Positions 8,227 through 43,424 of a DNA stretch of 64,000 nt are shown in pieces. The stretch lies in the NCBI GenBank assembly GCA_019634915.1, contig JAHCAN010000001.1, positions 100,063 through 164,062 on the forward strand, in the 5' to 3' direction. Under the pieces are notes generated by a model. That model was not told the DNA's origin. It ran no database searches and saw only the letters and a program-made list of their open reading frames with translations. Position numbers and translations under genes: made by a program. Each line of letters starts with the position of its first letter. The stretch's first letter is position 1. Source of the DNA: Steroidobacteraceae bacterium (GTDB lineage Bacteria > Pseudomonadota > Gammaproteobacteria > Steroidobacterales > Steroidobacteraceae).

Positions 8227-8239
8227 AACCCCGCGCGGC

Positions 8240-10582: not shown

Positions 10583-10603
10583 GTAAGGGGGCCTCAGCAG
10601 TTG

Positions 10604-10622: not shown

Positions 10623-10641
10623 TTCGTAATTACTTTCTCAT

Positions 10642-10655: not shown

Positions 10656-10753
10656 CGTCAAGGGACGCCGGGTGCTGTAGCCCGCGCAAGCCTCATAATG
10701 TTGGGATCCACCACGGGGAGGTCAGTCTGGACTGGGTCTACGCCACAGGGGTC

Positions 10754-11497: not shown

Positions 11498-11509
11498 CCG
11501 GTCGCCACG

Positions 11510-14672: not shown

Positions 14673-14712
14673 CACCCGTTCTCGCCTGACACCCGTTCTC
14701 GCCTGACACCCG
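14656..14712 (+). repeat. 17-bp tandem repeat, three copies plus a partial copy
   Basis: The unit CACCCnTTCTCGCCTGA occurs at 14656-14672, 14673-14689 and 14690-14706, with a truncated CACCCG after it. Copies 2 and 3 are identical; copy 1 has C instead of G at the variable base. Each unit ends with TGA, so the glycosylase gene ends in the first copy and the others give redundant in-phase or out-of-phase stops. It looks like a short minisatellite in the 118-bp gap before the next gene. Confidence 0.9.
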
Positions 14713-14790
14713 GCGTATGGCTCCTCGCGGGCGCCCCGCATGGCTCTCCGGAGCGATGCCGGCGCCCGGCCCCCTGCCGAGAATGGCGCC

Positions 14791-27372: not shown

Positions 27373-29928
27373 TCAGAAACGCAGGTTCACGTCGAGACCA
27401 TACGAGCGGCCGGGGGCGTCGTGGATGAACGCGCCGCCGAACTCGGGCGCCACGATCACCTCGGCGAGGTAGTCCTCGTCGGTCAGGTTGCGCACCCAGG
27501 CCGTCACGCTCCAGCGCTCGTGGCGCAGCGTGGCGCGCGCATTGAAGATCTCGTACGGATCGCGCTTCAGCTTCGAGAACTCGCCCTGACCGAAGCCGAA
27601 GCCGGTGAACAGGTTCGGGATGCGGTTGTCCTGCACCGGGTTGAACCAGGTCTCGCCGACCGCCGTCATGTCGAGGCGCGTGTCGAGCTCGAGGCCGTTG
27701 CCGCCGATCGGCACCGAGAACTCGACGCCCGCGTTGCCGGTGTACTTCGGCGCGTAGGGCACCTCGTTGCCCTTCGTGTAGGGCCGGCTGTCGTAGCGGT
27801 CGATCTCGCCGTCGACGAAGCCGATGCCGCCGAACACGCTGAAGTAGTTGTTGACGCGCCAGCGCGCGTCGAACTCGCCACCCTTGATCGTCACCTCGTC
27901 CATGTTGGACACGACGCGCAGCAGCCCGAACGGCCCGGCCAGGAAGTCGAAGAACTGCATGTTCTCGACCTTCGTGTGGAACACCGCGCCGTTCAGCGTC
28001 AGCCGGCGGTCGAGCAGCTCGGCCTTGAAGCCGATCTCGGCCGCCTTCGACACTTCCTTGTCGAAGTCGTCCCTGATGTTCGAGATGTTGTGCACCGAGT
28101 CCGGGCCGCAGACCGGCAACGTGAAGTCCGGCCCGAGGCACAGGCCGCCATAGGCCTGCTCGATCGTCGCGGCGCTGCCGCTCGAATTGAAGCCGCCCGA
28201 GCGGAAGCCGTAGCCGTAGGAGCCGAACAGCGACCATTGGTCGGTGACGCGCCAGTTGAGCGACAGCTTCGGCTGGAACTGGCTGAACGAGAGGTCGCGG
28301 CCCGGGATGCCGCTCGTCGCGAGCGCCGGATCGGCGGTGTACGCTGGATTGATGTACGGCGGCCCGCCCGGGTTGAACGCCGAGGCAAAGCCCGGCGTCT
28401 GCGCGAACGCATCGGCGCCGGTCGGCACGTTGTTGTCGACCTTGCGCTTCTCGCGGTCGTAGCGCAGCGCGAGCGACAGCTCCATCCTGTCCGTGAGGTC
28501 ATAGGCGAGCTGGCCGAAGCCGGCCATCACCTTGCTCGAGAAATCGTCGTCGTACAGCAGGTCGGTCGGGTTCGGGCCGCTCGCCGGCACGAAGGCCTGG
28601 TGCAGGAACACGCCGCCGCCGTTGTCGGAGCCCTGCGAGACGACCACATGGCGGTCGATGTCGGCGAAGTACACGCCGCCGATCCAGCGCAGCCGCTGCT
28701 CGCCGGGCGAGGACAGGCGCAGCTCGATGCTCAGGTCTTCCTGGTCGCGCTGCTGGTACTGGTAGCCGTCGCAGGTCGTCACGCTGTAGGGCGGCAGGAA
28801 GCTGGTCACGAAGCCGTTGCTCGGCGCGTAGAAGAACGGCGCCGGCAGCGGCGTGTCGGCCATGCGCGCGTCGTTCGAGGTGAGGCACGAGTCGGTCGAG
28901 CTGTACAGGTTGAACGCCGCGCTCGTGCCGTCGGTGACGAAGTTGTTGTCCTGCTTGTTGTAGGCGACGTAGCCGGTCAGCGTGTTCGCGCCGGCCGCCC
29001 ACTCGCCTTTCAGCGAGACGTTGATGTTGTCCTGGTCGTTGACCGGCTTGACGTTGTTCAGGTACTGGAACAGGTGGGTATTCGGGTCTTCCTGGAAGAT
29101 CGGCGCATTGAGCCCGGCCGCGGCATCCGCGAGCGCGAGCGACGCGTTGAAGTTGATCGCGCCCGCCTCGATCGTCGAGTACTTCGCCTTCAGGTCGAAC
29201 GAGCCGCCACCGAGATCGAACAGCAGCCGGCCCTGGACACCGGTCTCCTCGTAGTAGTCGACGCAGTCATCGCAGCCGATGACGTGGTTGTCCCACTGGC
29301 CGTCGGTCGTGCGGTAGTAGGCCGAGAGGCTGCCCTTCGCCGTCTCGGACAGGGCGCCGCCGGCCCAGAAATTGGCCTTGTAGCTGCCGTCGCTGCCGAT
29401 GCCGGCGCCGAGGTCGAGCTCGAACGCGTCGGTCGGCTTGCGCGTCGTCAGGATGATCGCGCCGGCGACTGCATTGCGGCCATAGAGCGCGCCCTGCGGT
29501 CCCTTCAGCACCTCGATCTGTGAAATCGAGCTGAGCTCCTGATTGAGCGCCGCCGGGTTGGTCTGCAGCACGCCGTCGATGACCAGCGCGAAATTGGTTT
29601 CGGTATCGCGGCCCGTGTTGATGCCGCGGATGTTGACCTGGATGTCGCCGATCTCGGCGGTCTGCACCTGCGACAGGCCCGGCGTCAGCGCGATGAAGTC
29701 CTGCGGCCGCTCGATGCCGGCGGCCTGGATGTCGCGCGCGGTGAAGGCATCGATCGTCGCGGGCACGTCGAGCAGCACCTCGGCGCGCTGGCGCGCGGTG
29801 GTGACGACCACCTCATCGAGCGCCTGCTGGCCCTGCGCGTGCGCGGTCGCGCCGGCAGCGGCGGCCGACACGGCGGCGGCGATCATCGACAGGCTACGGC
29901 ATCGGTGAAGATATCGCTGCATGGCCAT
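27373..29928 (-). CDS. TonB-dependent receptor (GntR-linked, substrate unknown)
   Basis: This 851-residue outer-membrane receptor has a signal peptide ending near AHAQ, a TonB-box-like DEVVVTTARQRAE segment and a plug domain (about 45-165, including GINTGRDTE, IEVLKGPQGALYGRNA and AGAIILTT). The large barrel ends GLDVNLRF. The IEVLKGPQGALYGRNA/GAIILTT style is that of receptors found beside catabolic genes in sphingomonads and relatives rather than siderophore receptors. It probably imports an organic substrate or its complex. The upstream region carries two copies of the palindrome also found at the GntR gene. Start ATG 29928 (or the inner ATG 29922) gives the signal peptide. Confidence 0.9.
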   Translation of the reverse strand: MAMQRYLHRCRSLSMIAAAVSAAAAGATAHAQGQQALDEVVVTTARQRAEVLLDVPATIDAFTARDIQAAGIERPQDFIALTPGLSQVQTAEIGDIQVNIRGINTGRDTETNFALVIDGVLQTNPAALNQELSSISQIEVLKGPQGALYGRNAVAGAIILTTRKPTDAFELDLGAGIGSDGSYKANFWAGGALSETAKGSLSAYYRTTDGQWDNHVIGCDDCVDYYEETGVQGRLLFDLGGGSFDLKAKYSTIEAGAINFNASLALADAAAGLNAPIFQEDPNTHLFQYLNNVKPVNDQDNINVSLKGEWAAGANTLTGYVAYNKQDNNFVTDGTSAAFNLYSSTDSCLTSNDARMADTPLPAPFFYAPSNGFVTSFLPPYSVTTCDGYQYQQRDQEDLSIELRLSSPGEQRLRWIGGVYFADIDRHVVVSQGSDNGGGVFLHQAFVPASGPNPTDLLYDDDFSSKVMAGFGQLAYDLTDRMELSLALRYDREKRKVDNNVPTGADAFAQTPGFASAFNPGGPPYINPAYTADPALATSGIPGRDLSFSQFQPKLSLNWRVTDQWSLFGSYGYGFRSGGFNSSGSAATIEQAYGGLCLGPDFTLPVCGPDSVHNISNIRDDFDKEVSKAAEIGFKAELLDRRLTLNGAVFHTKVENMQFFDFLAGPFGLLRVVSNMDEVTIKGGEFDARWRVNNYFSVFGGIGFVDGEIDRYDSRPYTKGNEVPYAPKYTGNAGVEFSVPIGGNGLELDTRLDMTAVGETWFNPVQDNRIPNLFTGFGFGQGEFSKLKRDPYEIFNARATLRHERWSVTAWVRNLTDEDYLAEVIVAPEFGGAFIHDAPGRSYGLDVNLRF

Positions 29929-30005: not shown

Positions 30006-30011
30006 ATCCTA
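30006..30011 (-). promoter_or_regulatory. Candidate -10 of the receptor promoter
   Basis: On the minus strand TGC-TAGGAT (30014-30006) resembles the extended -10 TGC-TAGCAT seen before two other genes in this window. It lies about 80 bp upstream of the receptor start. The palindromic operators at 30022-30053 cover the space where its -35 would be, which fits repression by steric blocking. Confidence 0.4.
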
Positions 30012-30021
30012 GCATGCGAAT

Positions 30022-30031
30022 TGACCGGACA
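30022..30031. promoter_or_regulatory. GntR operator candidate, copy 1 (TGACCGGACA)
   Basis: One mismatch from the perfect palindrome TGTCCGGACA; flanked by T and A to give TTGACCGGACAA. It lies 22 bp centre-to-centre from copy 2, about two helical turns, so two dimers could bind the same face. It lies in the divergent promoter region of the receptor and amidohydrolase genes. Confidence 0.55.
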
Positions 30032-30043
30032 AGCAAATGGCAA

Positions 30044-30053
30044 TGTCCGGACA
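30044..30053. promoter_or_regulatory. GntR operator candidate, copy 2 (TGTCCGGACA)
   Basis: A perfect 10-bp palindrome, identical to the one in front of the GntR gene at 36308-36317. GT..AC at the ends fits the symmetric operator pattern of the HutC branch of GntR regulators. It can control the receptor (minus) and the amidohydrolase (plus). Confidence 0.65.
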
Positions 30054-30107
30054 AACCACCGCAGCCGGGACGAGCCGGCTGTCGCGGTCGCGCAACGCCG
30101 GGGGCAC

Positions 30108-30116
30108 TGCTAGCAT
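30108..30116 (+). promoter_or_regulatory. Extended -10 element before the amidohydrolase gene
   Basis: TGC-TAGCAT, identical to the element at 809-817, ends 29 bp before the GTG start. A GGGAGGG ribosome binding site (30135-30141) lies between, so unlike the 824 gene this transcript has a normal short leader. Confidence 0.45.
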
Positions 30117-30145
30117 TGCGGGTTCTACGACACCGGGAGGGCGGA

Positions 30146-30997
30146 GTGAAGGCGATCGACATCGTGGCGGGCATCTGGACCCCGGAGGCGATCGCGCATC
30201 GCCCCGGCTGGCAGGACGAGTTCTTCGCCGGCAAGATGAAATCGAAGGCGAGCATGCAGGGCATCTCCCTGGAAGACATGCTCGCGCAGATGGACGCGGC
30301 AGGCATCGAACAGGCCTTCCTGTTCGCGCCCAAGGCGGGACGCAAGGGCCTGCCGGGCTCCTTCCACCTGCCCTACGAAGTCGTCGCCCGCGCCGTCGAG
30401 AAGTATCCCGCGCGCTTCCGCGGTCTCGCCGGCATCGATCCCTACGAAGGCATGAACGGCGTGCGGGCGCTCGAGGACGCCGTGAAGAACATGGGCTTCA
30501 TCGGTGCGCACCTCTACCCGCACTGGTTCGATCTGCCGCCCGACCACGCGAAGTACTACCCGTTCTATGCCAAATGCTGCGAACTCGGCGTGCCGATCCA
30601 GATGCAGGTCGGGCAGTCGATGGTGTACGCGAAGGAGCAGCCGATGCGCAGCGTCGGCCGGCCGATCCTGCTCGACGGCATCGCCTGCGACTTCCCGGAG
30701 CTCAGGCTGATCGGCATCCACGTCGGCATCCCGTGGACCGAGGAGATGATCGCGATGGCGTGGAAGCACGCCAACGTCTACATCGGCTCGGACGCGCACA
30801 GCCCGAAGTACTGGCCGCCGGCCTTCGTGAACTACATCAACAGCTACGGCCAGGACAAGGTGCTGTTCGGCACCGACTTCCCGGTGCTCGGCTTCGGGCG
30901 CACGATGGACGAGGTGCGCGCGCTCGGGCTGCGCCCCGAACCGCTGCGCAAGTTCCTGCGCGACAACGCGCTGCGCGTCTACGGCCTCGGGGGCTGA
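30146..30997 (+). CDS. Amidohydrolase-2 family protein lacking the N-terminal HxH motif
   Basis: This 283-residue TIM-barrel protein is related to ACMSD, resorcylate decarboxylase and 4-oxalomesaconate hydratase. Later metal and active-site positions are visible: His122 and His126 in GAHLYPHW, His192 in GIHVG and Asp244 in FGTDFPV. The first strand reads AIDIVAGIWTPEAI where the family normally has DxHxH, so two usual metal ligands are missing. It may bind metal differently, use none, or be non-hydrolytic. GTG 30146 is fixed by GGGAGGG. It is the first plus-strand gene after the GntR-type operators and is followed at 4 bp by a glutathione transferase. Confidence 0.82.
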   Translation: MKAIDIVAGIWTPEAIAHRPGWQDEFFAGKMKSKASMQGISLEDMLAQMDAAGIEQAFLFAPKAGRKGLPGSFHLPYEVVARAVEKYPARFRGLAGIDPYEGMNGVRALEDAVKNMGFIGAHLYPHWFDLPPDHAKYYPFYAKCCELGVPIQMQVGQSMVYAKEQPMRSVGRPILLDGIACDFPELRLIGIHVGIPWTEEMIAMAWKHANVYIGSDAHSPKYWPPAFVNYINSYGQDKVLFGTDFPVLGFGRTMDEVRALGLRPEPLRKFLRDNALRVYGLGG

Positions 30998-31001
30998 GCC
31001 G

Positions 31002-31613
31002 GTGCCGATGCAGATCATCGGCACCACTTCGAGTCCCTATACGCGCAAGCTGCGCGTGCTCGCGATCGAACGCGGCCTCGCGCACGAGTTCGTCGTCGCG
31101 AGCCCGATGACCGAGAGCGCGGCGGTGCAGGCGGTCAACCCGCTCGGCAAGGTACCGGTGCTGGTACGCGCCGACGGCAGCGCGCTGGTCGACTCGCCGC
31201 TGATCGCGGAGTATCTCGACAGCCTCGGCGACGCGCCGCGCCTGATCCCGGCCGACCCGGCAAAGCGCGAGGCCGTGCGCCAGCTCGAGGCGATCGCCGA
31301 CGGCGTGCTCGACGCCGCGCTCCTCGTGCGCATGGAATCGCTGCGGCCGGAGGCGCAGCGCAGCGCGGAGTGGCTGTCCTGGCAGGACGGCAAGATCCGG
31401 CGGGGCCTGGCGGCTTTCGATGCGCGGCTCACGGGGCGCAGCTGGGCGGTCGGCGATGCGATGACACTCGCCGACATCGCGCTCGCCTGCTGTCTCGCCT
31501 GGCTCGAATTCCGCTTCGACGAATTCCACTGGCGCGGCCGCTATGCCCACGCCGGACGCGTGCTCGAGGTGCTGGAAGACCGGGAGGCGTTCCGGCAGAC
31601 GCCGCACGCCTGA
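31002..31613 (+). CDS. Glutathione S-transferase family protein
   Basis: This 203-residue two-domain protein has a thioredoxin-like N-terminal domain with active-site segment TTSSPYTRKLRVLAIE and the cis-proline motif GKVPVLV. A DSPLIAEYL glutathione-binding motif and a helical C-terminal domain (DAMTLADIALAC N-capping motif) follow. It may conjugate, isomerise or dehalogenate a substrate using glutathione. It begins 4 bp after the amidohydrolase stop, so both are probably in the same operon and pathway. Start is GTG 31002 or ATG 31008. Confidence 0.88.
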   Translation: MPMQIIGTTSSPYTRKLRVLAIERGLAHEFVVASPMTESAAVQAVNPLGKVPVLVRADGSALVDSPLIAEYLDSLGDAPRLIPADPAKREAVRQLEAIADGVLDAALLVRMESLRPEAQRSAEWLSWQDGKIRRGLAAFDARLTGRSWAVGDAMTLADIALACCLAWLEFRFDEFHWRGRYAHAGRVLEVLEDREAFRQTPHA

Positions 31614-31619
31614 CCGGGC

Positions 31620-32849
31620 TCAGTCGGCGCCCTGGGCCACCGTCCTGACTGCCTGCTCGTCGGTCATCGCCGCGCCGCTCGCGAGCAGTGCCTCGATCGC
31701 CCCGCCGTCGAGCCCCGCCTCGCCGAGCACTTCACGCGTGTGCTCGCCGAGACGCGGCGCATGGCGCTCGATGCCGGCCGGCGTCGCGCCGAAGTTCACC
31801 GGGAAGGCCGGCAGCCGCAGCTTGCCCTCGGTCGGATGATCGACCGACTTCCAGAAACCGACGGCCTCCAGATGCGGATCGCTGGCGAGTTCCTCGAGGC
31901 TGTTGACGACGATCGTCGGCACGCTCGTCTTGCCGAACAGATCGAGCCATTCCTGCGTCGTGCGCGTCGCCATGATCTTCGCGGTCTCCGCATAGGTCGC
32001 GTCGATGTGGCGCACGCGGTCGGCGAGCGTGCGGAAGCGCGGGTCGGCCAGCAGGTCGGGCCGGCCGACGACCTCGCAGAAGACGGCCCAGTGCGCATCG
32101 AGGTAGGGCAGGATCGCGATGTAGCCATCCCGGGTCGGATACGGGCGGCGCTCCTGGCTCATCAGGCGCGTGTAGCCCGGGCCGCCGATCGGCGGATCGA
32201 AAGTCATGCCCCAGAGGTGCTCGCCCATGACGAAGTGCACCATCGTCTCGAACATCGGCACTTCGATGTCCTGCCCTTCACCGCTGCGTTCGCGGTGGAA
32301 CAGCGCGGCGAGCACGGCGTAGACGACCGTCACGGCCGTGGTCTTGTCGGCGACGACCGTCGGCAGGTAGCGCGGCTCGCCGAGTACCCGCTCGTTCAGC
32401 ATCGCGATGCCGCTCGCGGCCTGGATCGAATCGTCGAGCGCGCCCTTCGCGCCGTACGGGCCGCGCTTGGAGTAGCCGTAGGCGCCGCAGTAGATGATCC
32501 GCGGATTGACCTTCTTCAGGTCGGCATACTCGAGCCCGAGCTTGGTCATCACCTGCGGGCGGTTGTTGTGCACGAAGACGTCGGCGGTCGCCACGAGCTG
32601 CAGCAGCGCCTCGCGCGCACCGGGCTTCTTGAGGTCGAGCACGACGCTGCGCTTGTTGCGGTTGCAGCTGAGGTACAGCGCCGCCATGCCGGGATGGCGC
32701 GCCGCGCCGAGCGTGCGGTTGCTGTCGCCGCGCGGCGCCTCGATCTTGATGACGTCGGCGCCCATGTCGCCGAGGAACTGGCAGGCCCACGGGCCGAGGA
32801 CGACACTGGTCAGTTCGACGACACGGATACCGTGCAGGGGTCCGGGCAT
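31620..32849 (-). CDS. CaiB/BaiF family CoA-transferase (copy 1)
   Basis: This 409-residue type III CoA-transferase moves CoA between carboxylic acids through an aspartyl-CoA anhydride. Visible landmarks are VVELTSVVLGPWACQFLGDM at the N-terminus, VIKIEAPRGD, the NKRSVVLDLKKP segment and the predicted catalytic aspartate in ALDDSIQAASG. ATG 32849 matches the family start; the open frame upstream is antisense to the isochorismatase gene. It is convergent with the transferase gene (6-bp gap). Substrate unknown; two more copies lie at 38.0-40.3 kb. Confidence 0.9.
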   Translation of the reverse strand: MPGPLHGIRVVELTSVVLGPWACQFLGDMGADVIKIEAPRGDSNRTLGAARHPGMAALYLSCNRNKRSVVLDLKKPGAREALLQLVATADVFVHNNRPQVMTKLGLEYADLKKVNPRIIYCGAYGYSKRGPYGAKGALDDSIQAASGIAMLNERVLGEPRYLPTVVADKTTAVTVVYAVLAALFHRERSGEGQDIEVPMFETMVHFVMGEHLWGMTFDPPIGGPGYTRLMSQERRPYPTRDGYIAILPYLDAHWAVFCEVVGRPDLLADPRFRTLADRVRHIDATYAETAKIMATRTTQEWLDLFGKTSVPTIVVNSLEELASDPHLEAVGFWKSVDHPTEGKLRLPAFPVNFGATPAGIERHAPRLGEHTREVLGEAGLDGGAIEALLASGAAMTDEQAVRTVAQGAD

Positions 32850-32961
32850 ACGGCATGCTCCAGTTGCGGATCTGACAATCGGAAAAGCTTCACATCTGGC
32901 CGCAGGCGTGGCAATAGTGGAAACCCCGGTCGCGCGCGGCGCGGTCGTCCTGCGGGTGTCC

Positions 32962-33663
32962 ATGATGCAACCGACCTACATCGACGAATTCACCCGGCCC
33001 GTGAGCGTGGCCGGCGCGGGCAGCGCACTCGTGATCGTCGACATGCAGAATGCCAGCGGCCATCGCGCCTACGGCCTCGGCCGCATGCTCGCCGAGCAGG
33101 GACGCAGCGCGGAAGCCGAGTACCGCTTCGCGCGCATCGAGCGCCTGCTGATTCCCAACATCCGTCGCCTCGCGTCGGCCTTTCGCGCCGCCGCCGCGCC
33201 GGTGATCTACCTGACCTATGGCTGCACGCTGCCCGACTACGCCGATGCGCCACGCCACCTGAAGAAATGGCTGCAGGCGACCCGCAATCGCGCCGGCGAA
33301 CCCGAGCACGAAATCGTCGCGGAGCTCAGGCCCGAACCCGGTGACCTGGTGCTGAACAAGACGACGATCGGCGCGTTCGCCTCGACCGGCCTCGAGGCGG
33401 CCCTGCGCGGCATGGGCGTCGAGACGATCGTCGTCACCGGCGTGTCGACCAACAACTGCGTCGGCATGACCGCAATGGAAGCCGCCGACCGCCAGTTCGG
33501 CGTCGTGCTCGTCGATGACGCCACCGGCACCTGCAGCGACGCGATGCAGGCGGCGACCACGGCGACGTTCCGCCGCCTGTGGGGGCGGGTCGCAACCACC
33601 GACGAGGTGATCGGTGAACTGCGCGCCGGCCGCGGCGCGCGCCGTGCCGGCGCAGCCGGTTGA
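32962..33663 (+). CDS. Isochorismatase-like cysteine hydrolase
   Basis: This 233-residue enzyme of the isochorismatase/nicotinamidase superfamily has the triad visible: Asp in VIVDMQNASGH, Lys in LNKTTIGAF and Cys in STNNCVGMTA, with the usual cis-peptide before it. Such enzymes hydrolyse carbamoyl, amide or enol-ether bonds (biuret, N-carbamoyl compounds, isochorismate). ATG 32962 is taken as start. It is divergent from CaiB copy 1 and coupled (TTGA) to the EamA transporter, which suggests the two act on one compound. Confidence 0.88.
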   Translation: MMQPTYIDEFTRPVSVAGAGSALVIVDMQNASGHRAYGLGRMLAEQGRSAEAEYRFARIERLLIPNIRRLASAFRAAAAPVIYLTYGCTLPDYADAPRHLKKWLQATRNRAGEPEHEIVAELRPEPGDLVLNKTTIGAFASTGLEAALRGMGVETIVVTGVSTNNCVGMTAMEAADRQFGVVLVDDATGTCSDAMQAATTATFRRLWGRVATTDEVIGELRAGRGARRAGAAG

Positions 33664-34622
33664 CTCCCGAAGACTCCGCGGCCGGTTACCGGCTGACCGG
33701 CGCACTCGCCGCAGCGGCGGCAGCCGTCCTGTTCGCGTGCAAGGGCATCATCGCGAAGTTCGCCTACGCCCGCGGCATCCCGTTCGAGACGCTCTCGATC
33801 GTGCGTGCACTGCTCGCGGTGCCGCTGTTCTGGGGCTTCGCGTTCACGCACGAACCGGCGCGCGAAGTACTCGCGACGCCGTGGCGCCCGGCCGCGGCCG
33901 CCGCGTTCGCCGGCTTCATCTGCTACTACGCCGGCACGCTGATCGATTTCTATGCGCTGACGCTGATCGACGCGAGCATCGAGCGCGTGCTGATCTTCAG
34001 CTACCCGGCGATGGTGGTCGCGGCGAGCGCGGCGCTGCGGCGCGAGTGGCCGCCGGTGCGCGTCGTGATCGCCGTCGGCCTCACGTGGATCGGCATCTTC
34101 CTCGCGGTCGGCGGCTTCGACGCCGCCGCGCTCAGCGCCAACCTCGTCGGCGCGGCCTGCGTGCTCGCCGCGGCGCTGTCCTACGCGATCTACTTCATGA
34201 TCGGCGAGCGCTGCACGCGCCAGATCGGCGCGAGCCGCTTCACGCTCTATGCGATGTCGGCGGCCGCCGCGGCGCTGCTGGTGCACGGCATCCTGCGCCG
34301 TCCGCAACTCGCGCTCGCGCAGGTCGACGCGACGGGCTGGTGGCTGCTCGCCCTGCTCGCGGTGTTCTGCATGTTCGTGCCCGCGCTGCTGCAGGCCGAG
34401 GGCGTGCGCCGCATCGGCGCGCAGCGCGGCGCGCTGGTCAGCACCGCCGGGCCGCCGGCCACGATCCTGCTCGCGTGGCTGGTCCTCGGCGAGCGCCTCG
34501 CGCCGCTGCAGCTCGCAGGGGTCGGACTGATCGTCGGCGGCATCCTCGTGCTCGACGTGGCGCGGCTGCGCCGCCGCGGGCCGCCGGCCGGCGCTCAGCC
34601 GCCGGCGTCGGCCGCGGACTGA
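33660..34622 (+). CDS. EamA/DMT-family transporter
   Basis: This 320-residue inner-membrane protein has ten predicted helices in two EamA repeats (about 15-145 and 160-300). The second repeat ends AWLVLGERLAPLQLAGVGLIV-like, as in RhaT/YdcZ-type permeases for amino acids or metabolites. The TTG start overlaps the preceding stop. The end overlaps the convergent lyase gene by 28 bp. Substrate unknown. Confidence 0.82.
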   Translation: MTPEDSAAGYRLTGALAAAAAAVLFACKGIIAKFAYARGIPFETLSIVRALLAVPLFWGFAFTHEPAREVLATPWRPAAAAAFAGFICYYAGTLIDFYALTLIDASIERVLIFSYPAMVVAASAALRREWPPVRVVIAVGLTWIGIFLAVGGFDAAALSANLVGAACVLAAALSYAIYFMIGERCTRQIGASRFTLYAMSAAAAALLVHGILRRPQLALAQVDATGWWLLALLAVFCMFVPALLQAEGVRRIGAQRGALVSTAGPPATILLAWLVLGERLAPLQLAGVGLIVGGILVLDVARLRRRGPPAGAQPPASAAD

Positions 34623-35488
34623 CCGGCCATCGCGAGTACGCGGCGCGCCTTGTGCGCGACCGGGTAGTCGACGAACACGCCGTCCACCTGGATCGATGCG
34701 ATTCCACGGGCCTGCGCCTCGTCGAACGCGGCGACGATCGCCCGCGCGCGCTCGATCTCGGCGGCGCCGGGCGTGAACACCTCGTGGCACGGCGCGATCT
34801 GGTCGGGATGGATGCACAGTTTGCCGCGCAGGCCGAGGCGCCGGCCATTGCGTGCGGACTGGCGGAAGCGCTGCGGATCGCGCACCTCGAGCACCACCGT
34901 ATCGACCGGCGGCTCGAGCCCGGCGACGCGCGAGGCGTGCACGAGCCGCGCACGGCCGTAGGCGAGTGCCTCCTCTTCCGGCGTCCATTCGAGATCGAGA
35001 TCGTTGGTGTAGTCGCCGCCGCCGAACGCCAGGCGCGCGACGCGGGGCGATGCCGCGGCGATCGCTTCGGCGTCGACGACGCCGCGCGCGGTCTCGACGA
35101 TCAGCATCAGCTCGAGCGTCCCGGGCTCGAGCCCCGCCGCACGCTCGCGCGCCTCGATGTGCGCGGCGACCGCCTGCACGTGCCCGGCCGACTCGGCCTT
35201 CGGCAGCACGACGCCATCGAGCCACGGCCCGACCACCGCGTCGAGATCGTCGCGCCAGAACGGCGTGTCGACACCGTTGATGCGCACGTAGCCGCGGGCG
35301 CCGTGCGGCCGGCGCAGCGCCTCGACCGCGAGCGGACGCGCGTTCGCCTTCTCCGTGAGCGCGACCGCGTCCTCGAGATCGAGAATCACGACATCGGCGC
35401 CGACCTCGAAGGCCTTGCCGGCACGGCGCACGTGATTGGCCGGCGCAAAGAGATAACTGCGCAGCCCGGCGGGTGGGCGGGCGCTCAC
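34595..35488 (-). CDS. CitE/HpcH-HpaI-type acyl-CoA lyase (citramalyl/malyl-CoA lyase family)
   Basis: This 297-residue TIM-barrel protein is of the CitE-like branch that reversibly cleaves beta-hydroxyacyl-CoA such as citramalyl-CoA or malyl-CoA. Recognisable parts are RSYLFAPANHVRRAGKAFEV, the metal-binding LDLEDAV, YVRINGVDT, VLPKAES, the acidic ligand in LIVETARGV and the C-terminal KLCIHPDQI. GTG 35488 overlaps the GntR stop (GTGA), so the two are co-transcribed. Placed with a MaoC hydratase and CaiB transferases it would be the last, carbon-carbon cleaving step, yielding acetyl-CoA plus an oxo-acid. Confidence 0.88.
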   Translation of the reverse strand: MSARPPAGLRSYLFAPANHVRRAGKAFEVGADVVILDLEDAVALTEKANARPLAVEALRRPHGARGYVRINGVDTPFWRDDLDAVVGPWLDGVVLPKAESAGHVQAVAAHIEARERAAGLEPGTLELMLIVETARGVVDAEAIAAASPRVARLAFGGGDYTNDLDLEWTPEEEALAYGRARLVHASRVAGLEPPVDTVVLEVRDPQRFRQSARNGRRLGLRGKLCIHPDQIAPCHEVFTPGAAEIERARAIVAAFDEAQARGIASIQVDGVFVDYPVAHKARRVLAMAGQSAADAGG

Positions 35489-36252
35489 GGCGCGCTCCAC
35501 GAATCGGTCGATTGCCAGCCGCGCTGCAGTTCGAGCGAATAGGCGTAGCGATCGCTCGGGTGCTCGGACACCGAAATCTGGAACGGGCGCCCGCTGCGGC
35601 CGAAATAGCGGCGCACGACGGTGAGCGACGGCGTGCCGACCTCGGCGAGCAGCGGCCCGGCGAGTGCGGCGGTCACGCTGCCGGCGCGCAGGTGCACCTG
35701 GATGTGCTCGACGTGCTGGCCGTGCATCGCCTCGATCAGCTGGTAGACCATCTGCCCGCGCCTGCCGATCAGCGGCACGATGCCGGCGTAGTCGGGCAGC
35801 AGGTAGACGTCGGTCCAGGCCATCGGCACCGGCGAGGACTTCAGGCGGCGCACCGCGCTCACCTTGAGCCATTCGGAGCCGGTGCGCACATCGAGCACCT
35901 GCGCGAGGCTGCGCGTCGCCCTGACCTTCGCGGTGTCGACCACGTGCAGCCGGCTGTCGGACGGATAGCGCATCAGCTCGGCCGGCGTGCGCACGGCCTG
36001 CACGTAGGACGGCAGCGATTCGCGCGCGCGCACCACGGTGCCGACGCCCTGCTGGCGGTCGATCAGGCCGAGATCGTCGAGCACGCGCAGCGCCTCGCGC
36101 ACCGTATGCCGGCTGACCTCGTAGCGTTCGACGAGTTCGAGTTCGCCGGGCATCGTCTCCCCGACCTTGATGCGCCCGCGCCTGATCTCGCCGATCAGTG
36201 CATCGGCGAGCTGCCGGTAGCGCGGCTGTCCCTGGCCCTGCTCTTTTCCCAT
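35485..36252 (-). CDS. GntR-family (HutC/UTRA) transcriptional regulator
   Basis: This 255-residue regulator has an N-terminal winged helix (about residues 12-78; ELELVERYEVSRHTVREAL is the recognition region, QQGVGTVV the wing) and a UTRA ligand-binding domain (about 95-245). HutC-type proteins bind symmetric GT..AC operators and release on binding a pathway acid. A perfect TGTCCGGACA palindrome lies 56 bp upstream of its own start, and the same palindrome lies before the receptor and amidohydrolase genes. It is divergent from the MaoC operon and coupled to the lyase gene. ATG 36252 is the only start that fits. Confidence 0.92.
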   Translation of the reverse strand: MGKEQGQGQPRYRQLADALIGEIRRGRIKVGETMPGELELVERYEVSRHTVREALRVLDDLGLIDRQQGVGTVVRARESLPSYVQAVRTPAELMRYPSDSRLHVVDTAKVRATRSLAQVLDVRTGSEWLKVSAVRRLKSSPVPMAWTDVYLLPDYAGIVPLIGRRGQMVYQLIEAMHGQHVEHIQVHLRAGSVTAALAGPLLAEVGTPSLTVVRRYFGRSGRPFQISVSEHPSDRYAYSLELQRGWQSTDSWSAP

Positions 36253-36307
36253 ACCTCGACTGTAACCCGTTCGGTGGTTGACAGCCACCGGGCAGCGGAC
36301 CAAGATT

Positions 36308-36317
36308 TGTCCGGACA
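36308..36317. promoter_or_regulatory. GntR operator candidate, copy 3 (TGTCCGGACA)
   Basis: A perfect 10-bp palindrome, TTTGTCCGGACATTT with flanks, in the 88-bp gap between the GntR start (36252) and the MaoC start (36341). It is identical to 30044-30053. Position allows autoregulation plus control of the divergent MaoC/dehydrogenase/CaiB operon. Confidence 0.7.
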
Positions 36318-36340
36318 TTTGGCACGAATTGCAGGGAACC

Positions 36341-36859
36341 ATGACCCAGTCCGCCAGCCAGGTGGCGCCCGGCCGCTATCGCGAGTCGTTCGGCCGCTAC
36401 TACGAGGATTTCACCGTCGGCGACGTCTACGAGCATCGCCCGGGCCGCACGATCACGCAGACGGACAACATCTGGTTCACGTTGCTGACGATGAACACCC
36501 ATCCGCTGCATTTCGACGAGGAATACGCCAAGTCGAGCGAGTTCGGCCGCTGCATCGTCGCGAGCCCGCTCACCGTGGCGCTGATGGTCGGCATGAGCGT
36601 GTCCGACGTCAGCCAGAAGGCGATCGCCAACCTCGGCTGGCGCGACATCCGCATGACCGCCCCGCTCTACGCCGGCGACACGCTGTACGCCGAGTCCGAG
36701 GTGCTGGAAATGCGCGAGTCGAAATCGCGGCCCGGTGCCGGTCTCGTCACGGTGCGCACGACCGGGCACAACCAGGACCGCGTCGCGGTCTGCACCTTCG
36801 AGCGCACGATCCTGGTCGCGAAACGTAGCCACGGCGTCGGCGCGGCCGGCAACTACTGA
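36341..36859 (+). CDS. MaoC-family enoyl-CoA hydratase (itaconyl/mesaconyl-CoA hydratase-like)
   Basis: This 172-residue single hot-dog-fold hydratase has the MaoC catalytic pattern: Asp42 in TQTDN, followed by His54/His57 in MNTHPLHFD. GRCIVASPL and a C-terminal strand VAVCTFERTILV complete the fold. The family hydrates C4-C5 unsaturated CoA esters, including itaconyl- and mesaconyl-CoA. ATG 36341 starts after the operator; an upstream in-frame GTG would place the operator in coding sequence. It is the first gene of a four-gene operon, with one-base overlap (TGATG) to the dehydrogenase. Confidence 0.85.
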   Translation: MTQSASQVAPGRYRESFGRYYEDFTVGDVYEHRPGRTITQTDNIWFTLLTMNTHPLHFDEEYAKSSEFGRCIVASPLTVALMVGMSVSDVSQKAIANLGWRDIRMTAPLYAGDTLYAESEVLEMRESKSRPGAGLVTVRTTGHNQDRVAVCTFERTILVAKRSHGVGAAGNY

Positions 36860-38004
36860 TGGCGACGGACGACGAGCGCGCCGTTCTCGACACGATCGAA
36901 CACTGGGTCGAGCGCGAGGTGCGCCCGATCGCCAGGCAGTACGACCACGCCGACGAATACCCGCACGAACTCGTCGGGCAGATGAAGGACCTCGGCCTGT
37001 TCGGCGCGACGATCAGCGAGCAATACGGCGGCCTCGGCCTCTCGGCGTCGACCTACGCGCAGATCGTCACGACGATCGCCGCCGTGTGGATGGCGCCGGT
37101 CGGCATCTTCAATTCCCACCTGATCATGGCTGCCTGCGTGCAGCGCCACGGCACCGAAGAGCAGAGGCGGCAGTGGCTGCCGTGCTTCGCGAGCGGCGAG
37201 CTGCGCGGCGGCATCGGCCTCACCGAACCGAACGCCGGCACCGACCTGCAATCGATCCGCACCGTCGCGCGCCGCGACGGCAGCGACTACGTGATCGACG
37301 GCACGAAGACCTGGATCACGAACGGCATCCACGGCAGCTGCTTCGCGGTGCTCGTGAAGACTGATCCGGCCGCCGAGCCGCGCCACAAGGGCATGAGCAT
37401 GTTCCTGTGCGAGAAGGGCCCCGGGTTCACGATCGGCAGGAAGCTGAAGAAACTCGGCTACAAGGCCATCGACAGTGCCGAGCTCGTGTTCGACGGCTAT
37501 CGCGTGCCGGCGGACCGGTTGATCGGCGGCGTCGAGGGCAAGGGCTTCGTGCACGCGGTCGGCGGGCTCGAACTCGGTCGCATCAACGTCGCCGCCCGCG
37601 GCGCGGGCATTGCGCTCGGCTCGCTGCGCGAGGCGCTGCGCTATGCACAGGAGCGCAAGACCTTCGGCAAGCCGATCGCGCAGCACCAGGCGATCCAGCT
37701 GAAGCTCGCCGACATGGCCACGCGCGTCGAGGCGGCGAAACTGCTGATCCGCGAGGCCGCGAACAAGTACGATTCGGGCCAGCGCTGCGACCTGGAGGCC
37801 GGCATGGCCAAGCTGTTCGCCTCGGAGGCCGGCGTCGAGAACAGCCTCGAGGCGATGCGCATCTTCGGCGGCTACAGCTATTCGACGGAATTCGACGTCG
37901 AGCGCTTCTATCGCGACGCGCCGCTGATGTGCATCGGCGAGGGAACCAACGAAATGCAGCGCATCATCATCGCGCGCCAGCTGCTCGAGAGGCATCCGCT
38001 GTGA
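36859..38004 (+). CDS. Acyl-CoA dehydrogenase
   Basis: This 381-residue flavoenzyme has the three-domain acyl-CoA dehydrogenase layout: helical N-terminal domain, beta domain with GLTEPNAGTDLQS (about 121-133) and TWITNG, and C-terminal helical domain with RKTFGKPIAQHQAIQ. The catalytic-region motif is IGEGTNEMQR near residue 365. It introduces a double bond into an acyl-CoA and passes electrons to ETF. The operon context suggests a short branched or dicarboxylic acyl-CoA. It is translationally linked to MaoC and to CaiB copy 2 (GTGA overlap). Confidence 0.93.
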   Translation: MATDDERAVLDTIEHWVEREVRPIARQYDHADEYPHELVGQMKDLGLFGATISEQYGGLGLSASTYAQIVTTIAAVWMAPVGIFNSHLIMAACVQRHGTEEQRRQWLPCFASGELRGGIGLTEPNAGTDLQSIRTVARRDGSDYVIDGTKTWITNGIHGSCFAVLVKTDPAAEPRHKGMSMFLCEKGPGFTIGRKLKKLGYKAIDSAELVFDGYRVPADRLIGGVEGKGFVHAVGGLELGRINVAARGAGIALGSLREALRYAQERKTFGKPIAQHQAIQLKLADMATRVEAAKLLIREAANKYDSGQRCDLEAGMAKLFASEAGVENSLEAMRIFGGYSYSTEFDVERFYRDAPLMCIGEGTNEMQRIIIARQLLERHPL

Positions 38005-39212
38005 GCGCCACCGCCGACCGCGCCGCGCTGCCGCTCGCCGGCCTGCGCGTGCTGACGTTCGAGAACTTCGGCGCCGGCCCGTTCGGCTCGATGTACCTCG
38101 CCGACCTCGGCGCCGAGGTCGTGAAGATCGAGAACCGCGACCAGGGCGGCGATGCGACGCGGAACATGGGACCGTTCTTCCTCGGCGAGAACGACAGCCA
38201 CTTCTTCCAGACGTTCAACCTGAACAAGCGCAGCGTCACGCTGAACCTGAAGACCGCGGCGGGCCAGCAGGTGTTCCACCGCCTGGTCGCGCGCGCCGAC
38301 GCGGTGCTGAACAACCTGCGCGGCGACCAGCCCGAGAAGCTCGGCCTCACCTACGCGGCGCTCGCCGGCGTGAACCCGCGCATCGTCTGCGCGCATCTGT
38401 CGGCCTACGGGCGCGACAACGAGCGCAAGGGCTGGCCCGGCTACGACTACCTGATGCAGGCCGAGGCCGGCTATCTGCACCTGACCGGCGAGCCCGGCAC
38501 TCCGCCGGCGCGCATGGGCCTGTCGATCGTCGATTACATGACCGGCATCACGACGGCACTCGCGCTGCTCGCCGCACTGCTCGACGTCCGGAAGGGCGGC
38601 AAGGGCCGCGACATCGACGTGAGCCTCTTCGACGTCGCGCTGCACCAGCTGTCCTACCCCGGCACCTGGTTCATCAACGAACGCCACCACACCGGGCGGA
38701 TGCCCCGCAGTTCGCATCCGTCGGCAACGCCGGTGCAGCTGTTTCGCACGCAGGACGGCTGGATCTTCCTCATGTGCATGACCGAAAAGTTCTGGCAGGC
38801 GCTCACCGCGGTGCTCGGTGTGCCCGGGCTCGCCACCGATCCGCGCTACGCGACGATGCAGGCGCGCCGCGAGCACCGCGACGCGCTGACCGCCGAGCTC
38901 GACGGCCATTTCGCGCGCGACACCACCGCCGCCTGGCTCGACAAACTGCAGGGTGTGCTGCCGGCCGCGCCGGTCTACGACATGGAACAGGCGCTCGACA
39001 ATCCGTTCGTCGTGCGCACCGGCATGATCCAGGCGACGCCGCACCCGCAGAAGGAAGGCTTTCGCGCCCTCGCTAATCCGATCAAGCTCGATGGCCGGCG
39101 GCTGCACGGCCGCGTCGGTTCGGCGCTCGGCGCCGACACGCGCGACGTGCTGCGCGAAGCCGGCTACGACGACGCCGAGATCGACTCGCTCGCCGCGCAG
39201 CGGGTGATCTGA
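38001..39212 (+). CDS. CaiB/BaiF family CoA-transferase (copy 2)
   Basis: This 403-residue type III CoA-transferase has the N-terminal motif LRVLTFENFGAGPFGSMYLADLG, VVKIENRDQG, NKRSVTLNLK and the putative catalytic aspartate in GYDYLMQAEAG. GTG 38001 overlaps the dehydrogenase stop. It is probably the activating enzyme that loads CoA from succinyl-CoA or another donor onto the pathway acid, but the direction and partners are not shown by sequence. Confidence 0.9.
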   Translation: MSATADRAALPLAGLRVLTFENFGAGPFGSMYLADLGAEVVKIENRDQGGDATRNMGPFFLGENDSHFFQTFNLNKRSVTLNLKTAAGQQVFHRLVARADAVLNNLRGDQPEKLGLTYAALAGVNPRIVCAHLSAYGRDNERKGWPGYDYLMQAEAGYLHLTGEPGTPPARMGLSIVDYMTGITTALALLAALLDVRKGGKGRDIDVSLFDVALHQLSYPGTWFINERHHTGRMPRSSHPSATPVQLFRTQDGWIFLMCMTEKFWQALTAVLGVPGLATDPRYATMQARREHRDALTAELDGHFARDTTAAWLDKLQGVLPAAPVYDMEQALDNPFVVRTGMIQATPHPQKEGFRALANPIKLDGRRLHGRVGSALGADTRDVLREAGYDDAEIDSLAAQRVI

Positions 39213-39220: not shown

Positions 39221-40336
39221 ATGAAACTCGAAGGCCTGCGCGTCGTCGACCTGTCGCTGTTCCTGCCCGGGCCCTATCTCACGCAGGTCATGGCGGACCA
39301 TGGCGCCGAGGTGATCAAGGTGGAGCCGCCCGGCGAGGGTGAGCCGAACCGGCACATCGGCGCGACCGAGGATGGCGTCAGCATCTTCTTTCGCAACACG
39401 CACCGCGGCAAGCGCAGCGTCACCGCCAACCTGAAGGATGCCGCGCAGCGCGAGGCCCTGCTCGCGCTCGCCGCGACCGCGGACGTGTTCGTCGAAGCCT
39501 TCCGGCCGGGCGTCGTCGACCGCCTCGGCGTCGGCTACGCGCAGGTCGCCGCCCGCAACCCGCGCATCGTCTACTGTTCGATCGCCGCCTTCGGCCAGCA
39601 CGGGCCGTACCGCGACATGCCGGCGCACGACCTGGTGACCGAGGCGATGGCCGGGGTCGTGAGCCTCAACCTCGGCGAAGACGGCCAGCCGACGATTCCT
39701 TATGTACCTGCCGCGGACATGGCGGCCTCGATGTTCGCGCTGTCCGGCATCCTGATGGCGCTGCTGCGGCGCGAGCGCACCGGCGCCGGCGACTACCTCG
39801 ACATCTCGATGCACGATTCGATCCTCGCCTGGACACCGAACGTGACCGGCCAGGTGTTCGCGCACAAGCGCCCGCCGGTCGTGAAGCACGAGCGCAGCCT
39901 CGGCGGCAGCGCCTTCTACCGCATCTACCGCACGCGTGACGATCGTCACGTCGTGCTCGGCGGCCAGGAGCCGAAGTTCATCCGCAACCTGCTCACCGGG
40001 CTCGGCAGGCCCGGGTTCATCGAACTGTGCGAGCGCGGCCCGGGTCCGCACCAGGCGCCGGTCGTGGAATTCCTGCGCGGCGTGTTCGCGACGCGCACGC
40101 AGGCCGAATGGGTCGAGTGGTTCCGCGGCCGCGACGTGTGCTTCGCGCCGGTGAAGGACCTGCGCGAGGCCTTCGACGACAGCCACGCGAACGCGCGCGG
40201 CATGCGCCTCGTCGACGCCGCGGGCCGGGAACACATCGGCACGCCGCTCAAGTTCAGGAACGAGCCGGGGCAGATCGATTTCACGGTGCCGCGCCAGGGC
40301 GAGCACACGGAGCAATACCTCAGCAGGCGCGCCTAG
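39221..40336 (+). CDS. CaiB/BaiF family CoA-transferase (copy 3)
   Basis: This 371-residue type III CoA-transferase is shorter than copies 1 and 2. Landmarks are LRVVDLSLFLPGPYLTQVMAD, VIKVEPPGEG, GKRSVTANLK and the aspartate in AHDLVTEAMAG. It ends the MaoC operon (8-bp gap from copy 2). Two adjacent, clearly different transferases imply two acids to be activated, or a separate CoA-recycling step. Its TAG stop shares a CTAG with the stop of the convergent small gene. Confidence 0.9.
   Translation: MKLEGLRVVDLSLFLPGPYLTQVMADHGAEVIKVEPPGEGEPNRHIGATEDGVSIFFRNTHRGKRSVTANLKDAAQREALLALAATADVFVEAFRPGVVDRLGVGYAQVAARNPRIVYCSIAAFGQHGPYRDMPAHDLVTEAMAGVVSLNLGEDGQPTIPYVPAADMAASMFALSGILMALLRRERTGAGDYLDISMHDSILAWTPNVTGQVFAHKRPPVVKHERSLGGSAFYRIYRTRDDRHVVLGGQEPKFIRNLLTGLGRPGFIELCERGPGPHQAPVVEFLRGVFATRTQAEWVEWFRGRDVCFAPVKDLREAFDDSHANARGMRLVDAAGREHIGTPLKFRNEPGQIDFTVPRQGEHTEQYLSRRA
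40333..40336. other. Shared CTAG stop codons of two convergent genes
   Basis: The palindrome CTAG supplies TAG to the plus-strand CaiB copy 3 and, read in reverse, TAG to the minus-strand small protein gene. The same arrangement occurs at 63420-63423 for the ArsC-like gene and msrA. It fixes both ends exactly. Confidence 0.9.
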
Positions 40337-40714: not shown

Positions 40715-41644
40715 TCAGGCCGGGAAGAAATCGATGGGCTTGGTGGTCGTGATCGCCTCGACGTCGCGGGCCTCGAACCGGAACAGGCGCACGCGCGCAA
40801 CGATCTTGCGCTCGAGCTCCGGATCGCCGATCTCGCTCGATACCACCCGGCACATCGTCACCTCGCCCGATGGCGCAATGGTGAACTCGAGGACCATCTT
40901 ACCCTGCAGGTCGGGCTGTTCGCGAAGGGCCCGGCTGTAGAGCGCATAGATGGCCCCCTTGTTGCGGTCGAACACGAGCTCGATTTCCTCGCGGCTGCGC
41001 GAAGCCTTGCCGCTCGTGCCCGAGCGGGTCGCGGCGTCGCCGCGGCCGCCGACCGGCACGCCGGGCGGCATGCCCATGCGCGTCGTGTCGTGGCCCGTCA
41101 GGCTGCCGGCCCCCGCGCCGAAGCCGCGGCTCGAACTGGTCGAGGCGATGCCGCCGCTCGCCGCGCCCACTTTCGAGGTGATCAGCGAGCGCTCGGCGCG
41201 GCTGTCGGCGCCGACCTCGCCGGTCAGGTTGCGGGTCTGCTCGACCGGCACGATCGGCAGGTTCTGCCGCAGGTCGGCGAGTTCGTCCTGGAACTGGTTG
41301 ACCGCGCGCTGCGCCTTGCGGCGTGCCTCCTCGGTCCGGTCGACCGGCTGCGGGACCGGCTTCGGCGTGATCGCCGCGAGCTTCGGTTCCGGCTTCGGCT
41401 CCTCCTTGGGCACCGGCGGTGGCGGCGGCTCCGGCGGCTTGTAATCGAGCATCACCTTCGCGAGCCGCTGCGGCACGACTTCCTCGTAGGCCGCGCGTTC
41501 CGGCACCGGCAGGAACGGGATCACGATCGCGCCGACGACCAGCGTGACGAGCGCGACCGTCAGGAAGCGGCGCAGCCGCTCGTTCTCCTCGGGCTCGATG
41601 TCCCAGGCGAGGTCGAAGTGCCGGTAGTACGGGGCGAGCATCAT
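40715..41644 (-). CDS. AgmX/PglI C-terminal domain protein (TonB-like energy transducer)
   Basis: This 309-residue inner-membrane protein has a short cytoplasmic N-terminus, one transmembrane helix (about 24-45), a proline/lysine stretch (PPEPPPPPVPKEEPKPEPK), and a long low-complexity periplasmic linker. The AgmX/PglI-type C-terminal domain starts near RNKGAIYALYSRAL and ends with TTTKPIDFFPA. In Myxococcus related proteins (AgmX/GltJ) belong to the gliding Agl-Glt machine; elsewhere the domain acts like TonB. The ATG overlaps the ExbD2 stop, giving an ExbB-ExbD-ExbD-transducer unit. Confidence 0.85.
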   Translation of the reverse strand: MMLAPYYRHFDLAWDIEPEENERLRRFLTVALVTLVVGAIVIPFLPVPERAAYEEVVPQRLAKVMLDYKPPEPPPPPVPKEEPKPEPKLAAITPKPVPQPVDRTEEARRKAQRAVNQFQDELADLRQNLPIVPVEQTRNLTGEVGADSRAERSLITSKVGAASGGIASTSSSRGFGAGAGSLTGHDTTRMGMPPGVPVGGRGDAATRSGTSGKASRSREEIELVFDRNKGAIYALYSRALREQPDLQGKMVLEFTIAPSGEVTMCRVVSSEIGDPELERKIVARVRLFRFEARDVEAITTTKPIDFFPA

Positions 41645-42162
41645 GCCGGTTTGAAGCCGGCCGGCACCGGCTTCTCCTTCTGCAGCGTCGCGAGCGAGAT
41701 GCGGCCGTAGTCGGCATCGGTGCAGGTGGCCATCACCTTCTTCAGCACGTCGTACGGGATCGCCTTGTCGCCGAGGATCGTGATCTCGCGCGCGGCGAGG
41801 TCCTTCTCGGTCATCGCGCGACCGACCAGCATCGGGCGCTTGAGCGCGGCCCGCAGCGGCTCGATCAGCGGCGAGCCGGAGGCGCGGATCTCGTCGAGCG
41901 TCGCGACGTGCTCGCCCTGCACGAACAGGTCGGTGGTCGTCACCATCAGCACGACCGAGTCCTTCGGCTGCGCTTCGGCGATCGACTGCGGGATCTCGAT
42001 GCCCTTGGTGTTCTGGATCACCTCGACCTCGGTCGAGTACACGAGCAGGAACATCACGAGCACGGTCAGGATGTCGATCATCGGGATCAGGTTCAGCTCG
42101 AGACCACCCTTGTGGCGCTCGTGGCTCTTCGCCATGCGTCTTGCGCGGCCGGACATGCTCAT
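41641..42162 (-). CDS. exbD: ExbD/TolR family protein (second copy)
   Basis: This 173-residue protein has one N-terminal membrane helix (about 27-46) carrying the proton-path aspartate in LIPMIDILTVLVMF, followed by a periplasmic ExbD-fold domain. It differs clearly from the neighbouring copy, so the stator may be a heteromer. Both ends overlap neighbouring genes by four bases. Confidence 0.88.
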   Translation of the reverse strand: MSMSGRARRMAKSHERHKGGLELNLIPMIDILTVLVMFLLVYSTEVEVIQNTKGIEIPQSIAEAQPKDSVVLMVTTTDLFVQGEHVATLDEIRASGSPLIEPLRAALKRPMLVGRAMTEKDLAAREITILGDKAIPYDVLKKVMATCTDADYGRISLATLQKEKPVPAGFKPA

Positions 42163-42683
42163 GAGCGTGCCTCCGCGGCCACCGCCGGCGCATCCCCGAT
42201 CGAGATGTCGGGGAACAGCTCGGCCTGGACCAGCCGGCCGGCGTCGTCGACCTCGACGACACGCACCTTGTCCATGACCTGCACCAGCGTGTCGTAGGGC
42301 GTGTCGGGCTCGAGCAGGATCGTCGCACTCGTCATTTCGGGGAACTTGGTTTTCACGAGCTGCAGGTAGCCGGACAGGCCGTCGAGGTCATAGCCCGCCG
42401 CATTGCTCGGCAGTAGCGCAAGCCGGCCGCTGTTGCGGTCGGCGACGTCGAGGGCGTCCTTGCGCACGATCACCTCGAGCTGCAGGCCCTTCGGCGGCTC
42501 GCGGAACTCGGCGAGCTGTGCGGGCAGGTTGAGCTCGAGCACCACGGTGCGCGAGAACACCGCGGTCATCAGCAGGAAGGTCACGAGCACGATGAAGATG
42601 TCGATCATCGGCACGAGCAGCAGCTCCGATGGTCGACGGCTCCGGCGTGCGAGCTTGCGCGCCTCGAAGGATGACCTGCGCAT
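42159..42683 (-). CDS. exbD: ExbD/TolR family protein (first copy)
   Basis: This 174-residue protein has a basic cytoplasmic start, a membrane helix with the key aspartate in LVPMIDIFIVLVTF, and a periplasmic ExbD domain. With ExbB it forms a proton-conducting motor. Two exbD genes in tandem are also found in Myxococcus (AglS and its paralogue) and in some TonB2-type systems. It follows the ExbB gene by 15 bp. Confidence 0.88.
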   Translation of the reverse strand: MRRSSFEARKLARRSRRPSELLLVPMIDIFIVLVTFLLMTAVFSRTVVLELNLPAQLAEFREPPKGLQLEVIVRKDALDVADRNSGRLALLPSNAAGYDLDGLSGYLQLVKTKFPEMTSATILLEPDTPYDTLVQVMDKVRVVEVDDAGRLVQAELFPDISIGDAPAVAAEARS

Positions 42684-42698
42684 CGATGGCTCCTGGCG

Positions 42699-43352: not shown

Positions 43353-43424
43353 CGAAAGCACTCCTCGAAATGCGGCAGGTCAAGCGGTCTCAAACTGAAT
43401 GACATAAGGCTCAAAAGCTGCGAC

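Follow-up and report, generated by a model that had tools for sequence, protein, structure and literature searches.

What, if anything, joins the gene for an outer-membrane receptor to a set of coenzyme A (CoA)-ester genes several kilobases away? The question arises in a 64,000-nucleotide stretch of DNA from a Steroidobacteraceae bacterium (GenBank assembly GCA_019634915.1, contig JAHCAN010000001.1, positions 100,063–164,062; hereafter the window), in which a ten-base palindrome recurs. Exact copies of TGTCCGGACA lie at 30044–30053 and 36308–36317 of the window, and a copy with one mismatch, TGACCGGACA, lies at 30022–30031, offset by 22 bp (first base to first base) from the 30044–30053 copy. 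The 30022 and 30044 copies lie between the divergent starts of genes for a TonB-dependent receptor (ATG at 29922, minus strand) and an amidohydrolase (GTG at 30146, plus strand); the 36308 copy lies between those of a GntR/UTRA regulator (ATG at 36252, minus strand) and a MaoC hydratase (ATG at 36341, plus strand). An earlier note on this DNA had all three positions and the 22-bp spacing right, and its placement of the palindrome in divergent promoter regions holds for both exact 10-mers. The link seen between the two operons is real and conserved. Judged from sequence comparison, the palindrome is very probably the operator of the neighbouring GntR/UTRA protein, through which both the receptor/amidohydrolase and the MaoC operons would be controlled.

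Exact matches numbered two in the window against 0.06 expected, and none of 100 shuffles contained two. With one mismatch allowed the window held three matches, and 24 of 100 shuffles reached three or more, so that the imperfect copy proves nothing by itself. Lengthened by one base on each side and assigned to neither strand, the three sites read ATGTCCGGACAA (30043–30054, receptor/amidohydrolase intergenic region; called from its sequence and conservation in the genus), TTGACCGGACAA (30021–30032, the second, imperfect copy 22 bp from the first; called from its sequence) and TTGTCCGGACAT (36307–36318, between GntR and MaoC; called from sequence, promoter geometry and conservation).

Conservation of the site beside the GntR/UTRA gene

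The family form of the operator is WTGTMCGKACAW. The window GntR protein was matched in 37 of 200 family genomes, its own included, four of the matches being distant (30–33% identity). Upstream of the GntR gene, the site was present within two mismatches at 25 of 30 loci and within three at 29 (own locus included); the sole locus with no upstream site within three mismatches, that of genome G079, also has no MaoC match. For the MaoC genes we examined the 220 bases upstream of 49 of 51 full-length places (at least 65% identity), leaving out G154:C115 and G137:C93, both from genomes with GntR, and two fragments from G181. The sites accompany the GntR gene, as the earlier note implied: in genomes with a GntR orthologue the site precedes MaoC within two mismatches in 26 of 30 cases and within three in all 30, in genomes without one in 0 and 1 of 17, respectively, and in neither of the two genomes whose sole GntR is a distant one. 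The backwards motif, within three mismatches, was found in 2/30, 0/17 and 1/2 of these groups.

As a further set, 80 named loci were retrieved with a GntR profile (a retrieval pattern contained VSRHT), and 53 of them were usable, having MaoC and enough upstream sequence (26 had no MaoC match and one was short). The site stood before MaoC within two mismatches in 41 of the 53, the backwards motif in one, and the commonest form was that of the family. Loci L054–L090, mostly from the same Steroidobacteraceae assemblies, contributed 22 of 26, and L091–L133, none titled Steroidobacteraceae, 19 of 27 (L092 and L105 not being full palindromes), with genera that include Stutzerimonas, Pseudomonas, Azospirillum, Extensimonas and Polaromonas. 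Two loci (L122 and L128) carry the site before the dehydrogenase gene instead of MaoC. A chance origin of the sites was rejected on the basis of the shuffles, the co-occurrence of the MaoC sites with GntR and the named-locus counts compared with the backwards motif.

The receptor region was available for five of the seven members of the window's genus; in the remaining two, the contig ends at GntR (G090, in whose assembly no further exact site was found) or there is no GntR match (G066). The operator is present in all five (the window's own genome, G014, G034, G051 and G079), perfect in four and with no more than one mismatch in the fifth. G079 (L055) keeps GntR, CoA-transferase A, the glutathione S-transferase, the amidohydrolase, the operator and the receptor in the absence of a MaoC match, and its receptor operator is therefore tied to the regulator independently of the MaoC operon. 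The imperfect second copy is peculiar to the window, relatives having at most a three-mismatch version at that place.

Several results weigh against the operator reading. The backwards motif occurs within two mismatches in 1 of the 30 MaoC upstream regions of the GntR group; in genomes lacking GntR, MaoC is often immediately preceded by another gene, and the co-occurrence may thus partly reflect operon layout; and the related genomes in these counts are not independent. Given the upstream gene and the kinship, the pattern is co-occurrence, not proof. Five GntR-linked MaoC loci (L094, L095, L098, L103 and L106) have no site before MaoC. Outside the genus, none of nine divergent receptor/amidohydrolase pairs had a site within three mismatches (L072 and L086, with another gene order, were left out). 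This last result, together with the fact that one-mismatch 10-mers are not rare, would suit receptor-region palindromes that are there by chance or as a functionless inheritance, which we nevertheless consider very improbable: the operator is kept in five of five genus members though the intergenic sequence around it differs among them, and sites also precede a receptor gene in L061 and L165 and a different receptor gene in L151. Conservation of the palindrome before orthologous gene pairs, a check that the earlier note proposed, is seen for the MaoC promoters and, within the genus, for the receptor region, and is not seen for the receptor pairs of other genera.

Four of the five named loci without a site (L094, L095, L098 and L106) are Azoarcus/Aromatoleum clusters whose gene content is the same and whose GntR is related; their regulator may read another site.

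Further copies in the genome and the family

The window's own assembly (2,784,465 bases, 78.6% complete) contains TGTCCGGACA exactly at four places and the backwards control at none. About three copies are expected for a genome of this size, as estimated from base composition, so it is the location of the 10-mers that is telling, not their number. Of the four, two belong to the window and a third to another GntR/UTRA island (contig C34), and the fourth, at the 3′ end of an aspartokinase gene (contig C56), was put aside. Within one mismatch, TTGTCCGGACAA was found at five places (three in the window, one in C34 and one at the aspartokinase 3′ end), and with two mismatches it was not enriched in the assembly (25 places versus 22 for the control). 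Confinement of the sites to the window's island, which the earlier note had put forward for testing, is rejected, given the site in C34 and those in relatives.

In C34 the site lies between genes for an HpcH lyase and a TonB-dependent receptor, and genes for another GntR/UTRA protein, a class III CoA-transferase and a MaoC protein are close by. Two tannase-family genes follow the receptor gene, and the island's MaoC/CoA-transferase pair is preceded by a near copy, TTATCCGGACAT, which a second half-site overlaps. The G+C content of the island is 62.5–66.7% (3-kb steps) versus 70.5–71.1% at both ends of the C34 stretch, and a search of the other 216 family genomes at E 1e-40 found no counterpart of its regulator; the island looks acquired, carrying the same operator. 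A single distant relative of the C34 regulator (39%) turned up; it had no site within two mismatches, and its two three-mismatch sites are at chance level. The assembly has three UTRA regulators in total, the third with no site within three mismatches in its 3.4-kb locus. The island (L005, contig C34:12000–31000, about 3265–15629) also holds a TRAP permease.

Among 12 chosen family genomes (the window's own, the other six of the genus and five more with GntR), exact flanked WTGTCCGGACAW occurs at 45 sites and the control at none. Sorted by hand, 21 sites fall in the GntR island, whole or partial, one in C34, seven before an alpha/beta hydrolase gene, three before a TonB gene, five at class III CoA-transferase start codons and eight elsewhere. 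At the alpha/beta hydrolase loci (30 of the 44 genomes with the hydrolase), the site was present within two mismatches in 7 of 30 and the backwards motif in 1 of 30; the seven fall among the 21 loci from genomes with GntR, and none among the nine without. The TonB gene (L201–L206) has a copy within two mismatches, 21–23 bases before its ATG, in all six other genus members, and is perhaps part of the regulon. The window's own genome contained no match to the relatives' alpha/beta hydrolase at E 1e-80 and none to that TonB gene. The five CoA-transferase copies (L150:17386, L153:5016, L156:5500, L157:4967 and L161:4940) come from five members of the genus and were put aside, as their letters also encode the start of the protein (Met-Ser-Gly-Gln) and GntR went unmatched in G066, one of the genomes concerned; they are probably a coding coincidence.

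Regulator class and proposed mechanism

The window regulator (35485–36252, minus strand) joins an N-terminal GntR helix-turn-helix domain (64.7 bits, cut-off 27) to a C-terminal UTRA domain (49.9 bits, cut-off 23.8; both Pfam), as do members of the HutC subfamily (HutC, YvoA/NagR, DasR and PhnF), and its proposed site, GT-CCGG-AC, is conserved with 4 nucleotides between GT and AC. Passages of PMC4494728 give this spacing for most HutC-subfamily sites, and likewise have the site in a divergon with the regulator gene. The window differs in its CCGG centre, compared with the TA centre of the consensus GTMTAKAC, and in that its regulator is proposed to govern CoA-ester and TonB genes. According to the same passages, position 39 of the helix-turn-helix correlates with the central bases of the site, and Arg 38 contacts G in FadR and AraR; in our alignment the window GntR has Arg at position 38 and His at position 39, as in AraR. 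The recognition helix, VSRHTVREA, resembles VSRHTIRKA in the chain of Bacillus subtilis AraR (PDB 4egy).

The effector domain of AraR is of a sugar-binding type, whereas that of the window regulator is UTRA, and the genes controlled would also differ. Excerpts of PMC4218819 give the AraR operator consensus as At(T/A)tGTaCGTAcaa(A/T)T, the core of which is matched by Azospirillum TTGTACGTACAA sites, and have AraR binding two in-phase operators cooperatively. Five Azospirillum loci (L119, L121, L123, L126 and L131) carry TTGTACGTACAA or TTGTCCGTACAA before MaoC, and their GntR recognition helices read SRYT where those of the other 75 of the 80 proteins read SRHT. As this is a single lineage and VSRHT was in the retrieval pattern, the apparent co-variation of protein and site is only a hint.

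Against the assignment to the GntR protein speak three further observations. The protein misses the NCBIfam equivalog cut-offs for HutC (TIGR02018, 79.5 versus 220) and PhnF (TIGR02325, 104.1 versus 156.8); the C34 regulator is only 30% identical to it, with Phe in place of His in the recognition helix; and the near-copy before the TonB gene is also kept in G066, the genome with no GntR match. A site kept in G066 is what one would expect if the sites belonged to another regulator sharing these promoters while the GntR protein acted elsewhere, and TTGTACGTACAA-type sites are, in those excerpts of PMC4218819, also the sites of the unrelated AraR. We nonetheless regard another regulator as improbable, since the site before MaoC tracks the GntR orthologue, named loci from several classes have the site next to their GntR gene and the recognition helix suits the palindrome. 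Because the palindrome recurs before uptake and breakdown genes near one regulator gene in many bacteria, we take it as very probably the site of that regulator; its assignment to the GntR protein is likely from these comparisons.

The promoters suggest how the regulator may act. The MaoC promoter has a −35-like TTGACA (36278–36283, plus strand; called from sequence and its fixed distance to the operator) and a −10-like AAGATT that touches the operator (36302–36307, plus strand; TAGATT or TAGCAT in relatives). TTGACA occurs on the MaoC strand in 21 of 30 promoters, and in 20 of these 21 the operator begins 28–30 bases after its first base, on the −10-like box, these boxes being read by eye. 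Such a fixed geometry fits a blocking repressor. At the receptor promoter, with a putative −10-like TAGGAT (30006–30011, minus strand; by eye), the conserved operator is centred approximately 48 bases before the presumed start, again an estimate by eye. At such a position either repression or activation is possible.

We propose that the GntR/UTRA (HutC-type) protein binds TTGTCCGGACAA and its family form, a dimer reading the palindrome of GT and AC separated by 4 nucleotides through the AraR-like recognition helix. At MaoC the dimer would block transcription by covering −10/+1 of a sigma-70-type promoter, and at the receptor region, where the copies are separated by 22 bp or about two helical turns, two dimers could sit on the same side of the helix, perhaps cooperatively. 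A pathway metabolite bound in the UTRA domain would release the operator, and the regulon would then yield the outer-membrane receptor, hydrolases and the CoA-transferase, dehydrogenase, hydratase and lyase set. Alternatively, the protein might repress at MaoC and activate at the receptor-region site, where, in the five genus members, the presumed −35 region is immediately preceded by the conserved copy (by eye). This we hold to be unlikely, as the window's second copy overlaps the presumed −35/−10 spacer, favouring blocking. HutC-type regulators are mostly repressors.

The earlier note had the GntR protein repressing import, first processing and CoA-dependent degradation as one regulon. Repression by the GntR protein is the reading that we prefer, and it draws support from the sites kept at both promoters and from the MaoC geometry; the sites are not limited to one island, and the receptor/amidohydrolase arrangement with a site is found only in the window's genus.

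Neighbouring genes and a possible pathway

Pfam and NCBIfam largely matched the gene identities guessed in the earlier note. The receptor gene (27373–29922, minus strand) encodes a barrel and plug, and on the other side of the intergenic region stand the amidohydrolase (Amidohydro_2, PF04909; 30146–30997, plus) and a glutathione S-transferase-like protein (31002–31613, plus). Next come class III CoA-transferase A (PF02515; 31620–32963, minus), an isochorismatase-like hydrolase of uncertain start (PF00857 on a longer frame; 32962–33663, plus), an EamA transporter (PF00892; 33660–34622, plus) and an HpcH/CitE-like lyase, also of uncertain start (PF03328; 34595–35476, minus). Beyond the regulator, the plus strand carries the MaoC hydratase (36341–36859; Pfam, with RipB/Ich as the best NCBIfam model), an acyl-CoA dehydrogenase (36859–38004; Pfam) and class III CoA-transferases B (38001–39212; Pfam on a longer frame, and NCBIfam) and C (39221–40336; Pfam). 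ExbB/ExbD/TonB-like genes with no operator copy follow directly after the CoA operon (40715–43361, minus strand); one ExbD (42159–42683) was confirmed by Pfam and the rest of these genes were judged by eye.

The CoA-transferase, dehydrogenase, hydratase and lyase families of itaconate/methylsuccinate degradation are thus clustered in the window. The cluster ich-mcd-mmgE-ict-ccl of Pseudomonas aeruginosa and Cupriavidus necator, as given in portions of PMC12290011 and PMC9875883, shares with it the MaoC, acyl-CoA dehydrogenase, class III CoA-transferase and HpcH lyase families, and the GntR-linked cluster of Azospirillum brasilense also has MmgE/PrpD and TRAP genes. The window set differs in its link to GntR/UTRA, a word (GntR) absent from the main texts of both papers, and in its TonB receptor and hydrolases; TRAP and MmgE/PrpD were not found among the scanned window genes. 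Counting against the itaconate/methylsuccinate pathway itself, MaoC scores below the RipB/Ich cut-off (228.8 versus 340 bits; relatives, 190.5–221.4) and the HpcH lyase below that of RipC/Ccl (182.8 versus 375 bits; relatives, 174.1–229.4). With both well under the curated cut-offs, we call the route a sister pathway.

The TonB receptor and hydrolases suggest a larger or conjugated substrate and, from an enzyme set built like the itaconate/methylsuccinate pathway, the substrate may by analogy be a branched short dicarboxylic acid or its conjugate. A tentative and rather doubtful extension is that esters or conjugates of a branched short-chain dicarboxylic acid enter by a TonB-fed route, in which the receptor would import the conjugate, hydrolases (the amidohydrolase, the relatives' alpha/beta hydrolase and the two tannase-family enzymes of C34) would free the acid and the sister pathway would degrade it, all controlled by a single type of UTRA regulator that passed from genome to genome along with its operator.

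Among open-licence papers, taken without the supplementary motif tables of PMC4494728, the only one with TTGTCCGGACAA concerns fly stem cells and none of the 18 with TGTCCGGACA has a title on bacterial regulation, so earlier curation is possible; no open-licence paper was found that joins these gene families or names. The regulon is new; the type of regulator is known. The analysis defines an operator, names a candidate regulator and outlines a regulon that possibly reaches from the outer membrane to central metabolism, with the UTRA domain as a handle for finding the pathway substrate, and an operator common to MaoC genes of alpha-, beta- and gammaproteobacterial records groups these CoA-transferase/MaoC/lyase clusters for joint testing.

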